A DNA stretch of 64,000 nt from Clostridiales bacterium (GTDB lineage Bacteria; Bacillota; Clostridia; Saccharofermentanales; Saccharofermentanaceae): assembly GCA_017561715.1 (NCBI GenBank), contig JAFZBN010000018.1, positions 310,001 through 374,000 of the forward strand, in the 5' to 3' direction. A program made the position numbers and the translations under genes. This document shows positions 2,886 through 34,575 of the stretch, piece after piece (the first letter of the stretch is position 1; the number at the start of each line of letters is the position of its first letter). The notes beneath the pieces were generated by a model. That model was not told the DNA's origin. It was given only the letters and a program-made list of their open reading frames with translations, and did not search any database.

Positions 2886-4232
2886 TTACTTATTCTTCAG
2901 GCGCTTCTCCAGTGCTTTTTTCTCAGCTTCATAACCCGGCTTACCGAGAAGAGCAAACATGTTCTTCTTGTAAGCTTCTACGCCCGGCTGGTTGAACGGA
3001 TTTACGGAATTGAGGTAACCGGAAATACCGCAAGCCTTCTCGAAGAAGTAGATCAACTGACCGAGCCAGTACTCGTTGAGCTCGGGAACGTGGATGATGA
3101 GGTTCGGGACCTTACCGTCAACGTGAGCAAGAACTGTACCCTGCATCGCCTTGAGGTTAACTTCGTTCATGTCCATACCGGAAAGGAAGTTCAGACCATC
3201 GAGGTTCTCCGGATCGTTCGGGATCTTGAAAGAACGACGAGCCTTGTCGATAACAACAACTGTCTCGAAGAGCATTCTCTTACCGTCCTGGATGTACTGA
3301 CCCATGGAGTGGAGGTCTGTGGTGTTGTCAACGCCGGCCGGGAAAATACCTCTGCCGTCCTTACCTTCGGACTCACCGTAGAGCTGCTTCCACCATTCTG
3401 TCATGAAGTGGAAAGAAGGCTCGTAGTTGACCATGACTTCTGTTGTGTAACCGCGGCGCAGGAGGCAGTTTCTGGCGATCGCGTACTTGTAGCAATCGTT
3501 CTCCATTTCTACCTTCTTGAAATCACGGCTTGCGTCACGAGCACCGGTCATGAGTTGACGGATGTCGATACCTGCAACAGCGATCGGCAGAAGACCTACA
3601 GCTGTCAGAACGGAGAAACGTCCTCCGACGTCATCCGGTACTACGAATGTCTCGTAGCCTTCCTTAGTCGCGAGGCCCTTAAGAGCTCCCTTTGCCTTAT
3701 CTGTTGTAGCGTAAATTCTCTGTCTGGCTTCTTCTTTACCGTACTTTTCTTCCATGTAAGCGCGGATGATACGGAAAGCGATCGCCGGCTCGGTTGTTGT
3801 ACCGGACTTGGAGATGATGTTGACGGAAACTCTCTTACCCTCGAGAAGATCCATCAGGTCAGCGAGATATGTAGCGCTGATGGAGTTACCGCAGAAAAGG
3901 ACCATCGGAGCTTTTCTTACTTTCTTCTGGGCAACATTCGCGAAAGAATGAGACAGAAGCTCGATCGCTGCTCTTGCGCCGAGGTAGGATCCGCCGATAC
4001 CGATAACCAGAAGTACATCAGAATCCTTTCTGATCTTAGCGGCTGCTTTGCGGATACGGATAAACTCGTTCTTGTCATACTTGCTCGGAAGTTCTACCCA
4101 GCCAAGGAAGTCACTGCCGGGACCTGTCTTCTTGTGAAGCATGTTGTGTGCCACTTCTACCTGTGGCAGCATCTTTTCCATTTCGCCTTCGGAAATAAAA
4201 GGCATAATGTTGGAAGTATCAAGACTAATCAT
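2886..4232 (-). CDS. pgi: Glucose-6-phosphate isomerase
   Basis: A cytosolic glycolytic enzyme that interconverts glucose-6-phosphate and fructose-6-phosphate. The 448-residue length matches Firmicutes Pgi. Visible signatures include the sugar-isomerase block [16 protein letters not shown], the [15 protein letters not shown] phosphate-binding segment, the [16 protein letters not shown] loop and the C-terminal [13 protein letters not shown] motif. A GAGGAG ribosome site lies between an upstream ATG (4247) and ATG 4232, so 4232 is the start. It is monocistronic with its own terminator, and the 300-base gap upstream holds one iterated octamer at 4451. Confidence 0.96.
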
Positions 4233-4484
4233 AAAAATTCTCCTCATTCTTTTATGAAAATTGGTGTCCTCAACACCGCATTAAGTATAACATGAATAAC
4301 GCGGATTGCACGGATAGAAACGCAGAAAATGCATCAGAATTCATTAAGAATTTCGTGGAAATCGTAGGTTTTTAAGATTTGTCAAGAAAAAATGAAAGTC
4401 GAAATCGGTTAAGTTAGGATGGCTTCGTCAGCGCTCTTTAAGAGGGGCAGGTGCTTTTCGCGAAGATGAAGATCCAATTCAAAA

Positions 4485-4513
4485 TGGATTCTTTTGACTT
4501 TATGAATTATAAT
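4485..4513 (+). promoter_or_regulatory. Candidate sigma-A promoter for the DUF4364 gene
   Basis: A TGGATT hexamer at 4485-4490 is followed after 17 bases by a perfect TATAAT at 4508-4513, about 30 bases before the gene. The rest of the 4233-4542 gap shows nothing else I recognise apart from the octamer at 4451. Confidence 0.5.
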
Positions 4514-4542
4514 GAGAACCACGATTACAGACAGGGGTACCC

Positions 4543-5094
4543 ATGGAAAAGGCTGATTCTACAAATTCCAAGATCATCATTCTTTATATCCTTTCAAAGG
4601 TGAACGATATCTCGTCTTCACAGTTGATGGATTGTGCTCTGGAATCTTTATACATGGACTTCTTCTCCTTCAGCCAGGCCAAGTCGGAACTGGTTTCCAA
4701 AAAGCTCATGACCGAGATGGTTCGAAAGGGTGAACTGCGAAAAGATGCGACCGGAAAGCCGGTCCTTTCCTGCTATATCACACCCGCCGGAAAAGAGATC
4801 CTCGAAAGGCTTCTCCCTTCTGTTCCTGCGGCGATCCGTGCCTATCTGACTTCCGCTTCGCGCAACTGGCAGGTTGACACGAATGAGTCGCAAAGCGTAT
4901 TTGCCGATTATTCTCCGAATGACGAGGGCACATGGTACGTCGATCTTCGTCTGATCGAGCGCGGCTCCACCACTTTTGCTCTGCGCATGGCTGCTCCTTC
5001 CGAAGAAGTTGCCGAGAGAACATGCAAACGTTGGGAAACAGCTACTGCTGAAACCTATATGGAGATCCTGCGACTTTTGTCGGAAGAAAAGTGA
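4543..5094 (+). CDS. DUF4364 family protein, winged-helix-like
   Basis: A 183-residue protein recognised as DUF4364, a Clostridia family of unknown function. The N-terminal 75 residues look like a winged helix (NSKIIILYILSKVNDISSSQL, then a TPAGKEILERL segment typical of DNA-binding wings). The C-terminal half has the mixed beta/alpha GTWYVDLRLIERG core of the family. A role as a transcriptional regulator is inferred from the fold only. An ATG follows an ACAGGGGT sequence that is a weak ribosome site. Downstream lies the first palindrome array. Confidence 0.75.
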   Translation: MEKADSTNSKIIILYILSKVNDISSSQLMDCALESLYMDFFSFSQAKSELVSKKLMTEMVRKGELRKDATGKPVLSCYITPAGKEILERLLPSVPAAIRAYLTSASRNWQVDTNESQSVFADYSPNDEGTWYVDLRLIERGSTTFALRMAAPSEEVAERTCKRWETATAETYMEILRLLSEEK

Positions 5095-5168
5095 CCCCCA
5101 CATTTTGAATGAACATCTTTGCTCACACGTTGCAATTTTGAGAGCGTACGTTATAGTTGTGCTTTCTT

Positions 5169-5343
5169 GTTCTATGTTTCGTTCTATTTTGACTGCCTTT
5201 TTAGAACCAAACCTAGAACATTCCCTCTTTGTTCTATGTTTCGTTCTATTTTAGCCGCTTTTTTAGAACCAAACCTAGAACATCCCCTCTTTGTTCTATG
5301 TTTCGTTCTATTTTGGCCGCTTTTTTAGAACCAAACCTAGAAC
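5169..5343. repeat. Locus A: three tandem 51-bp GTTCTA palindromes, 62-bp period
   Basis: Units start at 5169, 5231 and 5293, each 51 bp, separated by 11-bp spacers. Each unit is an 18-bp left arm (GTTCTATGTTTCGTTCTA), a 15-bp loop, and an 18-bp right arm (TAGAACCAAACCTAGAAC). The arms are complementary except at two positions that are kept in all three units. The apparent reading frames through this stretch are artefacts of the repeat. Confidence 0.92.
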
Positions 5344-5465
5344 AACACAAAGATCTGTTCTTTTCTTTCCGCAAAGGTGATATGATGTGTACATGCTCGA
5401 CTTTTGTTGTGGTATTAGATGTTGATTGTATGAATCGAGCAAATATCACTAATAAGAGGTGTAGC

Positions 5466-6272
5466 ATGATTTCTTCTCGTATTATTGCATCCGCGATTCA
5501 TCTTCGAAAGAGCGCCATTTCGTCGCTCCAGCTCATCGACCAGAATTCCCCGAAGCTTTCGCTTGGCAAGCACAACGTTCATGGACGGACTGTTCATGTC
5601 ATTCGCATTTTTAAAACCATCAACGGCAAGCAAAAGTGTTTTGAATATTCGATTACTGCCCCCATAGGCAAGAAGCTTTTGACGGCAAACCAGAAAGTTT
5701 TTCTTGTTAGAAAAGCACTCGCAGCGCTTTCGTCAGACGATCTTTTCGTTACTCAATCCATCAGAAGCATTTCCAAGGCTCCTGAAAAACCGGCTTGGCT
5801 GGATCCTGACACAAACGCAAACACCCCCACCCCGTCGTCACTTTCCTTCTCCATAGACGAATGGCTCTCCCTCAGCGAGTGGAACGACCCGAGAATTACA
5901 AACGGATACCGCCACGGGAATCACGTCTTCCGTTCCAAATCAGAATTGATGATCGCGCAACTATTAGAATCGTTGGGATTAGAATACAAATATGAACCTC
6001 TGATAATGATCGGCGGAACGGAAAGACGCCCTGATTTTGCGGTCCTCTGTCCGGAAACAATGAGATACTTTTTCATAGAGCATCTGGGATTACTAAGCGA
6101 TGCTCGCTATCGCATGGATGCAATAGCAAAAATGGAACAATACGACAAAGCCGGGATCCGCGATGGCATCGACATCATCTACACAACAGAGTTCGGACAG
6201 GGTGGTTTTGACATTGATGCAGCATATGGAAAGATAGCCGGTGCCATTCTTGCACAAAGCAAATCCGTGTAG
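5466..6272 (+). CDS. Putative PD-(D/E)XK nuclease-fold protein
   Basis: A 268-residue protein. The C-terminal half (residues about 165-255) has the pattern SKSELMIAQLLESLGLEYKYEP, then RRPDFAVL, then FFIEHLG. This fits a restriction-endonuclease-like core with a helix-borne Glu, an Asp in RPDF and an Glu-x-x motif in IEHLG. The N-terminal half is unrecognised and basic. ATG 5466 has a GAGGTG ribosome site; the frame also runs open upstream through the palindrome array but has no start signal there. It begins about 120 bases past locus A, so a link between the two is possible but unproven. The nuclease call is moderate. Confidence 0.55.
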   Translation: MISSRIIASAIHLRKSAISSLQLIDQNSPKLSLGKHNVHGRTVHVIRIFKTINGKQKCFEYSITAPIGKKLLTANQKVFLVRKALAALSSDDLFVTQSIRSISKAPEKPAWLDPDTNANTPTPSSLSFSIDEWLSLSEWNDPRITNGYRHGNHVFRSKSELMIAQLLESLGLEYKYEPLIMIGGTERRPDFAVLCPETMRYFFIEHLGLLSDARYRMDAIAKMEQYDKAGIRDGIDIIYTTEFGQGGFDIDAAYGKIAGAILAQSKSV

Positions 6273-6275
6273 GGT

Positions 6276-6890
6276 TTACTCTTTCAGCCAGCCCTTCTCA
6301 ACACCGCGGTCGAGGTTTTTCATGATCCACGCATAGACTTCCGGCATGAATTCCTTGATGATCTGCGCGCGGGCTTCAACCTGCGATCTGACCGCGCCGT
6401 TGTTGCGCCATGTGTGGCCTTCCGTCAATGTGTTATGGAGAAGCGGCTGCGTGCGGTCAAGACAAGCCGCGTATTTCGCATCCGTAGTTTCCATCGCGTC
6501 AAATTCTTCCCAGAGCGCGCGAAGCTCTGCGCCCTGTTCCGGCGGGAGCTGTGAGTAAAGCTTATCGGCGGCGGCCTCTTCACGCTCGGCCTTGCTGGCG
6601 TTTCCTGCCACATCGTAAGCAAAAGTGTCGCCCGCGTAGATCTCGATGAGGTCATGGACAACACACATTTTGATGGCGCGCTCTACGTTCGGTTCCTCAA
6701 CGCAATACTCCTTGAGCAGAAGCGCCATAACGGCGATGTGCCAGGAATGCTCTGCGTCGTTTTCGTTACGGACTCCGGAGATCAGCATCGTGCGGCGATA
6801 GACCTCCGTCATCTTATCGATCTCTGCGGAAAACTTCAGCTGCTGATCCAGACGCGGATTGCCCGAACTCAAAAAATCTTCAATACCCAT
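6276..6890 (-). CDS. HD domain phosphohydrolase (HD_3 / YfbR-like)
   Basis: A 204-residue HD-superfamily protein. Metal-binding motifs are clear: NDAEHSWHIAV supplies the first His, VVHDLIEIYAGD the HD doublet, and a later Asp (LDRTQPLL) completes the set. The length and the IYAGDTFAYD segment match the HD_3 group that includes nucleotide phosphohydrolases such as YfbR. Activity on dNMPs is a family-based inference. A GAGGAAG ribosome site precedes ATG 6890. It is convergent with the nuclease-like gene, with only three bases between the stops. Confidence 0.82.
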   Translation of the reverse strand: MGIEDFLSSGNPRLDQQLKFSAEIDKMTEVYRRTMLISGVRNENDAEHSWHIAVMALLLKEYCVEEPNVERAIKMCVVHDLIEIYAGDTFAYDVAGNASKAEREEAAADKLYSQLPPEQGAELRALWEEFDAMETTDAKYAACLDRTQPLLHNTLTEGHTWRNNGAVRSQVEARAQIIKEFMPEVYAWIMKNLDRGVEKGWLKE

Positions 6891-6988
6891 TATTCAGCTC
6901 ACTTCCTCGCGAAAAGCACCTGTGCCGTTTCCGCGGCGCTCCGATGCTTCAGTTATCTCACTCAAATCTGATTATACTACACGTTTCC

Positions 6989-7906
6989 TTAGTTCATTAT
7001 GGTCATAACGTGCAAGATGCCATATCCGAAATATGCACTGGCCGCATTTGCCACAACGGCATAGATTATATTCAGCACGGGGTACACATTTAAGTCGACC
7101 GTCTGCAGTCTTTTCCTGTATATAAGAGCTTCGGCCACAATAATGAACACTTCCAAGATCAAGTAGTACGTCCCAAAGCTGATAATTCCCGTTCCGAAGT
7201 ATTCCCCGAGAAAGACCGCAATATTCAAAAAGAGTTGTGTCAGTGAATTTACCAGGAAGAACCATCCCAAGTTATCCAAATTCCACAACATGAAAGTCGC
7301 GAGCAATATTCCTTCGATTATGATGGTAATAACAAAGCAGATAAAGACCGCACGCATCCAGCTGCCAAATGAATAAAACGTGAGCTGATATTCTTTCAGG
7401 ATACCGGTCTCACAGTCGAAAACGCATTCCGCATGCAAAAACCTCTGTGTGATCTCATTACTTACATAGATCTCTCCGTCGAATGTGATCAGGAGGATCT
7501 TGTATGTATCCGGCAAGCATCCCATCTCTCCGGAAAAGCGATAGTACGATGTGTCATTCGAACGGTCATAATAGTCCCCAAACCCCATTCGTCCATTTTC
7601 GAAAAGTGTATACCCGTCTTCGTCGTACTCAAAAAGCATCCTGACGATCTCATTCTCTTTTTCAGTTAAATTCGGATTCGGTGAAAATTCCGGCACAATG
7701 CTTTCTTCCCTGGAGATCAATGCGACAAAGTAATCCTCTGACGGCGCGTTTTCGATCGTAAGATTAATTTCCGGCTTCGGTCCGAAATCGGCATATACCG
7801 CTGAGGCAAAAACACAGACGCAGGTAATGACTGTCACCAGCATCACCAGTGCTTTTCGGAAAGAACTATTCGTTGTTCTAAATTGATCCTTGGAATACAT
7901 TTGCAC
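6989..7906 (-). CDS. Exported membrane protein of unknown function
   Basis: A 305-residue protein with an N-terminal signal or anchor helix (residues about 20-40, ending ASAVYADFGPKP). An extracytoplasmic domain of about 140 residues follows, then four hydrophobic helices between residues 180 and 300. The ADFGPKPxxxxxIENAP opening is one I associate with uncharacterised Clostridia membrane proteins, but I assign no function. The start is GTG 7906 or ATG 7900, since an AAGGGG ribosome site serves either. It is divergent from the lipoprotein at 8003. Confidence 0.6.
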   Translation of the reverse strand: MQMYSKDQFRTTNSSFRKALVMLVTVITCVCVFASAVYADFGPKPEINLTIENAPSEDYFVALISREESIVPEFSPNPNLTEKENEIVRMLFEYDEDGYTLFENGRMGFGDYYDRSNDTSYYRFSGEMGCLPDTYKILLITFDGEIYVSNEITQRFLHAECVFDCETGILKEYQLTFYSFGSWMRAVFICFVITIIIEGILLATFMLWNLDNLGWFFLVNSLTQLFLNIAVFLGEYFGTGIISFGTYYLILEVFIIVAEALIYRKRLQTVDLNVYPVLNIIYAVVANAASAYFGYGILHVMTIMN

Positions 7907-16879: not shown

Positions 16880-17125
16880 GTTCTACGATTTGTTCTACAA
16901 TTTGTTCTACAAAATGGGGTTTTGCAGAACACTTTGTTGAACAGCGGCCTGGTTCTATGTTTTGTTCTAAAAAACACCGAAAAATAGAACGAAACATAGA
17001 ATTTCACCATTTGTTCTAGGTTTGGTTCTAAAAACCAGTGAAAAATAGAACGAAACATAGAACATCTGTCCCTTGTTCTAGGTTTTGTTCTAAAAGTCAC
17101 CTCAAAATAGAACCAAACATAGAAC
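16880..17125. repeat. Locus B: four 51-bp GTTCTA palindromes between divergent operons
   Basis: Units start at 16892, 16952, 17013 and 17075 (periods 60, 61, 62). An extra GTTCTAC half-site at 16880 is 12 bases before the first. The first unit belongs to the CAAA subtype seen at locus C. The other three are the locus A subtype in inverted orientation: the reverse complement of the 17013 unit nearly equals the 5169 unit, including the same arm mismatches. All keep the 18-15-18 layout. Confidence 0.9.
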
Positions 17126-20613: not shown

Positions 20614-20784
20614 GTTCTACAAAGTGTTCTACAAATCTTTCTTTTGTAGAACGTTTTGTAGAACATCGCTCAGGTTCAACAAATTGTTCTATAAATCATC
20701 TTTTTGTAGAACGAATTGTAGAACATCGCTCTTGTTCAGCATATTGTTCTACAAATCTTTCTTTTGTAGAACGATTTGCAGAAC
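20614..20784. repeat. Locus C: three tandem 51-bp GTTCTAC palindromes, 60-bp period
   Basis: Units start at 20614, 20674 and 20734 with 9-bp spacers. Each has an 18-bp arm (GTTCTACAAANTGTTCTA-type), a 15-bp CAAAT..TTTTG loop and an 18-bp opposite arm (TAGAACGNTTTGTAGAAC). Dimensions are identical to loci A and B although the sequence between half-sites differs. Confidence 0.92.
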
Positions 20785-34217: not shown

Positions 34218-34575
34218 GATAAGATCAAAGCGCTGTATTTCGCCAAATGATCTTACCTTCCGCTCTTCCGAATAAGATCAAATCGATGATTTCCACCAAA
34301 TGATCTTATCTTCCCCTCGTCCGGATAAGATCAAATCGCTGTTTTCCTCCAAAAGATCTTATCTTCCCCTCATCCAGATAAGATCAAACCGCCGTATTTC
34401 GCCAAATGATCTTACCTGCCGCTCTTCCGGATAAGATCAAATCGCTGTTTTCCTCCAAACGATCTTATCTCCCCCTCATCCAGATAAGATCAAACCGCCG
34501 TATTTCGCCAAATGATCTTATCTTCCGCTCTTCCGGATAAGATTAAATCGCTGTTTTCCTCCAAAAGATCTTATC
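34218..34575. repeat. Locus D: seven palindromic units at an exact 53-bp period
   Basis: Units start at 34218, 34271, 34324, 34377, 34430, 34483 and 34536. Each is 40 bp with arms GATAAGATC and GATCTTATC (minor changes in some), followed by a 13-bp pyrimidine-rich spacer (TTCC-S-CTC-N-TCC-R). The centre alternates between two versions: CGCTGTTTTCCTCC in units 3, 5 and 7, and CGCYGTATTTCGCC in units 1, 4 and 6. It lies between the convergent lipoprotein B and ftsH genes, inside their terminators. Confidence 0.93.

Follow-up and report, generated by a model that had tools for sequence, protein, structure and literature searches.

The presence of three tandem palindromes between two bacterial genes raises the question of what holds such a structure in place, and whether it belongs with the gene that follows it. 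We have explored this question in a Clostridiales bacterium, starting from the 64,000 nucleotides of contig JAFZBN010000018.1 that were analysed as a whole (the window). The palindromes, here called array A, and their surroundings are as follows.

4543..5094, + strand: DUF4364 gene, the upstream neighbour, used as anchor for locus comparison
5169..5219, no strand: array A unit 1, with GTTCTA boxes at 5169 and 5181, mirrored boxes at 5202 and 5214, and a 15-base loop at 5187-5201
5231..5281, no strand: array A unit 2
5293..5343, no strand: array A unit 3
5385..5465, + strand: leader between array A and the nuclease start
5466..6272, + strand: candidate cognate nuclease gene (268 aa), 121 bp from array A to start
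6276..6890, - strand: HD-domain gene, the downstream neighbour

As the initial annotation had proposed, array A (5169-5343) is made of three palindromic 51-bp units at an exact 62-bp period, with copies beginning at 5167, 5229 and 5291 (identities of 100, 92 and 84% over 62 nt). The four GTTCTA half-sites that had been claimed for each unit, two per arm and 12 bp apart, were all recovered without mismatch: the boxes sit at offsets 0, 12, 33 and 45, the latter pair mirrored after the 15-base loop, and GTTCTA-N6-GTTCTA occurs mismatch-free at 5169, 5231 and 5293 on the + strand and at 5202, 5264 and 5326 on the - strand. With up to two mismatches allowed, this half-unit has 29 matches in the window vs 3.76 expected in shuffles, a count that none of 100 window shuffles reached. 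The flanking genes had been called regulator-like and nuclease-like, a fair description of the DUF4364 gene upstream and the nuclease-like gene downstream. No transposon family was recognised for the repeat that would make it a known transposon end, and a search of the window for tRNA and tmRNA genes found none. In the leader, we observed a possible long-range pairing (GCTCGA..TCGAGC), and the stretch 5380-5470 folds better than its shuffles here (z -3.4) but not at the matching G016 stretch (z -0.1).

A search of the genome and its relatives for the pattern, as had been proposed, revealed a dispersed family, which rules out a repeat unique to this locus. GTTCTA arrays occupy about ten places in the genome (28 units at up to three mismatches), all of them intergenic according to the gene listing, and arrays are also present in close relatives. 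The window itself holds three further arrays.

16880..17125, no strand: array B, GTTCTA box, four units and an extra half-unit, between divergent genes
20614..20784, no strand: array C, GTTCTA box, CAAA inner arms, three units at 60 bp
34218..34575, no strand: third-family array, a 53-bp palindrome in 6.8 copies, GATAAGATC..GATCTTATC

The GTTCTA pattern was found in seven of the 59 genomes searched (own included), all of one genus, and the 20 stretches returned by an exact scan of the genome_contigs collection belong without exception to uncultured Clostridiales or Clostridia, several being named as rumen or omasum isolates. Geometry remains constant across relatives while the spelling of the box varies: arrays are spelled GCTCTR in G011 and G016 and GCTCTA, or a mixture, in G010, and the unit in these three is 52 bp with the period still at 62.

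Comparison of matching sites points to gain and loss of whole arrays. At the DUF4364 locus, array and nuclease gene occur together in G000, G022, G004, G021 and G016 (in the last, all 12 boxes are GCTCTR), and at the other 19 of 24 places the array is missing and the sequence continues into other genes; in G010, a GCTCTA array precedes a related nuclease elsewhere. The site after the fumarase gene has a GTTCTA array in five of 22 relatives (own included), a GTCTCTG array in G008 and G012, and a clean empty site in G006, where both flanks of the G015 array abut with neither an array nor a duplication; no target-site duplication was visible. By eye, this same site in G009 (L201) carries yet another spelling, a tandem palindrome of about 53 bp, GCATAAGA..TCTTATAAC. 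Array C is absent from the matching site of G002, whose right flank is intact, and the site of the window's GATAAGATC array (34218) is occupied by a GTTCTA array in G002. Because arrays at matching sites are common to several species, movement would be rare at most.

What is conserved within the units was examined against G022, pairing units by hand in their order within each array. Differences affect 3 of 504 box positions, 1 of 168 in the loop rims and 11 of 252 in the spacers, compared with 30 of 147 in the central seven loop bases and 52 of 1292 in the summed array flanks, to which the C5 array contributes a single side and array B none, since those three flanks align poorly. At the nuclease locus (three units against three), all six differences lie in the loop. 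Between close relatives, the central loop of the GTTCTA unit (bases 23-29) shows about five times the variation of flanking DNA, and exchange of units within arrays may be the source of some of the loop difference.

The pairing of the two arms was judged against random re-pairing of arms within each of three genomes that have loci in common and so are not independent. Pairing exceeds expectation at spacer bases 2-4 (base 4 clearly so only in G022, and weakly in the other two) and falls below it at the loop rim and at spacer base 6, where 4 of 28, 1 of 15 and 2 of 28 units pair. Of the 59 distinct units whose rim is T/T, just four have base-6 letters that pair, and each of the six mismatches among C, G and T is represented. 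The initial annotation had held that two arm mismatches are kept in every copy, and both (the 7th and 12th bases of the 18-base arm) are indeed found in all three copies of array A. Across the genome only the 12th stays unpaired (pairing in 4 of 28 units against 9.1 expected), whereas the 7th pairs in 15 of 28 against 10.3, so that from these counts one arm mismatch is actively kept unpaired and the other is not. The broader proposal, that selection is not simply for a perfect hairpin, agrees with this mixture of bases pairing above and below the random level. By eye, GCTCTR units lack the kept base-6 mismatch and their spacers hardly pair. Selection at the level of structure would favour a folded single strand as the substrate of whatever acts on the array.

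The nuclease gene, which the initial annotation had named only as surroundings, proved to be the most informative part of the locus. The 268-aa protein encoded next to array A belongs to a large paralog family and has a divergent N-terminal part (residues 1 to about 130), possibly a DNA-binding domain, and a PD-(D/E)XK-like C-terminal part. When the motif E..D..E-x-[KH] was compared, E160, P189-D190 and E205-H206 were invariant in all 14 family members, which also have in common a match of the C-terminal part to the nuclease end of PADLOC PDC-S68 (E 1e-18, residues 152-253 of the protein). Weaker PHROG matches are to Holliday junction resolvase and endonuclease families; Pfam and PDB searches gave nothing convincing and no PDB relative. 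A structure model was too poor to support a fold (mean pLDDT 40), and the three strands and helix that it places in the N-terminal part with low confidence are not counted as evidence. Homologs occur in all 23 genomes of the genus (1 to 10 per genome) and in 84 of 85 genomes of the sister genus, and in only eight of 398 genomes sampled across the phylum, own genome included; in family f4 of the same order, the full profile was found in none of 12 genomes. A phage or plasmid origin was considered and rejected, the matches being weak ones to the nuclease domain in five plasmid and three phage records that all cover less than 80% of the query; a scan of viral contigs found no relative. One locus of the own contig C21 (L042, G000:C21:76582-76809) has a 1221-aa open frame that combines helicase-like sequence with the same C-terminal nuclease domain, and this long protein resembles PDC-S68.

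Are arrays a general companion of these nucleases? A palindromic tandem array lies within 1.5 kb of 43 of 75 nuclease loci (23/33 in the own genus, 14/30 in the sister genus, 6/12 in the wider phylum) vs two of 102 control stretches (0/19 DUF4364 loci without the nuclease, 0/5 Y1 loci and 2/78 tiles of contig C21), and one of those two is a real solo array; at 32 of the 75 nuclease loci no array was found. These counts come from a detector that accepts, besides a strict rule, any palindromic tandem repeat with a period of 45-85. The strict rule itself, blind to box sequence and demanding four equal boxes, two units and a period of 57-66, gave 18/33, 10/30 and 0/12 for the same three groups and 1/102 for the controls (1/78 C21 tiles, 0/19 DUF4364 loci, 0/5 Y1 loci), and returned no array from 640 kb of Markov sequence. 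An ordinary tandem-repeat search that imposed a strict stem rule was too insensitive (11/77 nuclease loci), and both detectors replaced it. The own-genus sample (33 loci, L038-L041 and L137-L165, with the long helicase L042 left out) and the sister-genus sample (30 loci) are smaller than the numbers of matches listed, the wider-phylum sample is 12 loci after own-genome loci L244, L252, L254 and L256 were dropped, and several tested loci stop at contig ends. Where the array is downstream, it usually starts no more than about 20 bp past the stop codon (exceptions at 71, 86 and 459 bp), and at L141 and L171 near-identical arrays stand on both sides of the gene. We also noticed palindromic arrays with a period of 53 or 75 at the distant nuclease loci L245, L255 and L257, those of L245 flanking the gene on either side. 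A cognate association of the nucleases with palindrome arrays is well supported by these comparisons, and we regard it as very probable.

The boxes, moreover, appear to follow the nuclease lineage, being GTTCTA, GCTCTR, GTCAGA, GTCYCTG, TTCGACA and others, often at a period of 60-62 bp. Box distance tracks the distance between N-terminal protein parts (Mantel r 0.46, with none of 5000 permutations as high), a correlation partly expected from shared descent; for the C-terminal part r is 0.38. Three box families coexist in one genome, each common to a nuclease-adjacent array and to stand-alone arrays. The GTTCTA family comprises the nuclease at 5466-6272 and the arrays described above. In the GTCYCTG family, which within the genus is confined to G000, G008, G012 and G022 (4 of 23), the nuclease C13:74664-75398 has its array downstream, with further arrays or units at C21:136931, C21:169612, C21:7724 and C13:55007. 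In the GATAAGATC family, the array directly precedes the nuclease C18:379105-379629 and others lie at 34218-34575 of the window and at C18:390629.

Based on these results, we propose that an array serves the nuclease encoded beside it as a cluster of recognition sites. Each PD-(D/E)XK-like nuclease lineage would recognise its own box of 6-8 bases, laid out four per 51-52 bp palindrome and repeated every 60-62 bp (palindromes of 51, 53 or 72-75 bp in other lineages). Copies would adjoin the nuclease gene and occupy other intergenic sites, being gained and lost over evolution, and one resident nuclease would maintain, and on rare occasions spread, a family of non-coding palindromes, probably by acting on the folded single strand. 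A box common to gene-side and solo arrays, lineage-specific boxes, a constant geometry and turnover at matching sites, which can be read from the sequence as directly as the association and the pairing pattern, fit a nuclease able to recognise its own array and to sustain the array family; we infer from them physical binding, cleavage, spread and a single-stranded substrate. G002 and G015 keep perfect GTTCTA arrays with best nuclease matches of only 44% and 36% identity, so either conservation needs no nuclease or the nuclease was lost or missed. Taken whole, with a REPIN-like mechanism included, we give this reading a little better than even odds.

Other explanations have to be weighed against it. 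The arrays could be transcription-control sites, mainly for autoregulation of the nuclease, with solo arrays regulating other genes. The boxes are constrained, and the 71-210 bp that separate upstream arrays from the script-chosen start codon leave room for a promoter. However, in roughly one case out of three the array comes directly after the nuclease stop codon, the ten GTTCTA arrays of the genome follow no pattern among neighbouring genes (by our reading, four convergent, three divergent and three co-directional), and neither the avoided arm pairing nor the turnover of sites is explained, so that we consider a role as operators unlikely.

The array hairpins might instead be transcribed and act on the nuclease as RNA, either as antitoxin or as guide. 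In type III toxin-antitoxin systems (ToxIN, CptIN), as they are outlined, tandem repeats stand upstream of a nuclease gene. The same arrangement is seen here, the array A unit folds far better than its shuffles on either strand (z about -6), and selection acts at the level of structure. Yet the matches of the nuclease point to DNA nucleases (PADLOC PDC-S68 and PHROG Holliday junction resolvase), with no ToxN/CptN-kind endoribonuclease in Pfam, NCBIfam or PADLOC scans and no relation to those toxins in the family searches done; the repeats are palindromic and also lie downstream of the gene, far from it and dispersed; and around array A the one promoter-like match before the array is at chance level and positions 4000-7000 have no Rfam match at gathering score (best 26.2 bits vs 60). 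An RNA partner is in our view distinctly improbable.

We give still less credence to chromosomal arrays as decoys that sequester a toxic nuclease, a DNA antitoxin from which it would be released when foreign DNA replicates: multi-copy conserved boxes and a nuclease domain common to phage-defence candidates are in keeping with it, but arrays persist in genomes where the nuclease has no close relative. Finally, dispersed palindromes such as REP elements are common in many bacteria, but an accidental neighbourhood of ordinary intergenic repeats and nucleases, the least probable of these explanations, is contradicted by the excess of arrays at nuclease loci over controls and by boxes that match per nuclease lineage.

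Among known systems, the closest arrangement to the proposed nuclease-array pair appears to be REPIN-RAYT, with unrelated parts here. REPINs are described as intergenic palindromes in foldable inverted doublets, sometimes in tandem clusters, and the flanks of the RAYT transposase gene as bearing the same palindromes (PMC3116915); REPIN repeats are also described as persisting in genomes without a RAYT gene (PMC8049555). Our arrays are likewise dispersed, intergenic, inverted and able to fold, cognate palindromes lie beside an enzyme gene, and G002 and G015 keep the repeats without it. The enzyme is different, being PD-(D/E)XK-like where RAYT is a Y1 (HUH) tyrosine transposase, and the arrays have a fixed tandem period of 60-62 bp with several coexisting families per genome. 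Among the 23 genus genomes, the Y1 transposase PF01797 is absent from the own genome and from every array-bearing one, and the four that have it (G003, G009, G013 and G014) have no arrays; we thus reject membership in REPIN-RAYT, whose defining transposase is missing. The PDC-S68 phage-defence candidates of PADLOC have the C-terminal nuclease domain in common with our protein, but their models span about 1200 positions, and in our protein the N-terminal part joined to the domain is short. The attC sites of integrons are folded palindromes with conserved non-pairing positions, a likeness that we treat as a lead only; here there are direct boxes within each arm, no cassette genes and another box sequence. 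A literature search in open-licence papers found no description of such nuclease-palindrome systems, nor the name PDC-S68, and matching arrays beside related nucleases suggest an undescribed nuclease-repeat partnership.

In conclusion, we tentatively suggest, at somewhat less than even odds, a widespread and undescribed class in Clostridia, in which PD-(D/E)XK nucleases with fast-changing recognition are mirrored by private arrays. A genome would contain several such pairs, each array being recognised as a folded single strand in which one base is deliberately left unpaired, and the whole would be a selfish replicator independent of RAYT, or a DNA antitoxin. The system would be a second, independent case of long-lived non-coding palindrome families tied to a dedicated nuclease, and the link to arrays would give a label to a large family of unannotated nuclease genes. 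It would also represent a natural series of matched protein-DNA specificity pairs that could allow a recognition code to be deduced, the strict-detector set alone comprising about 20 boxes.
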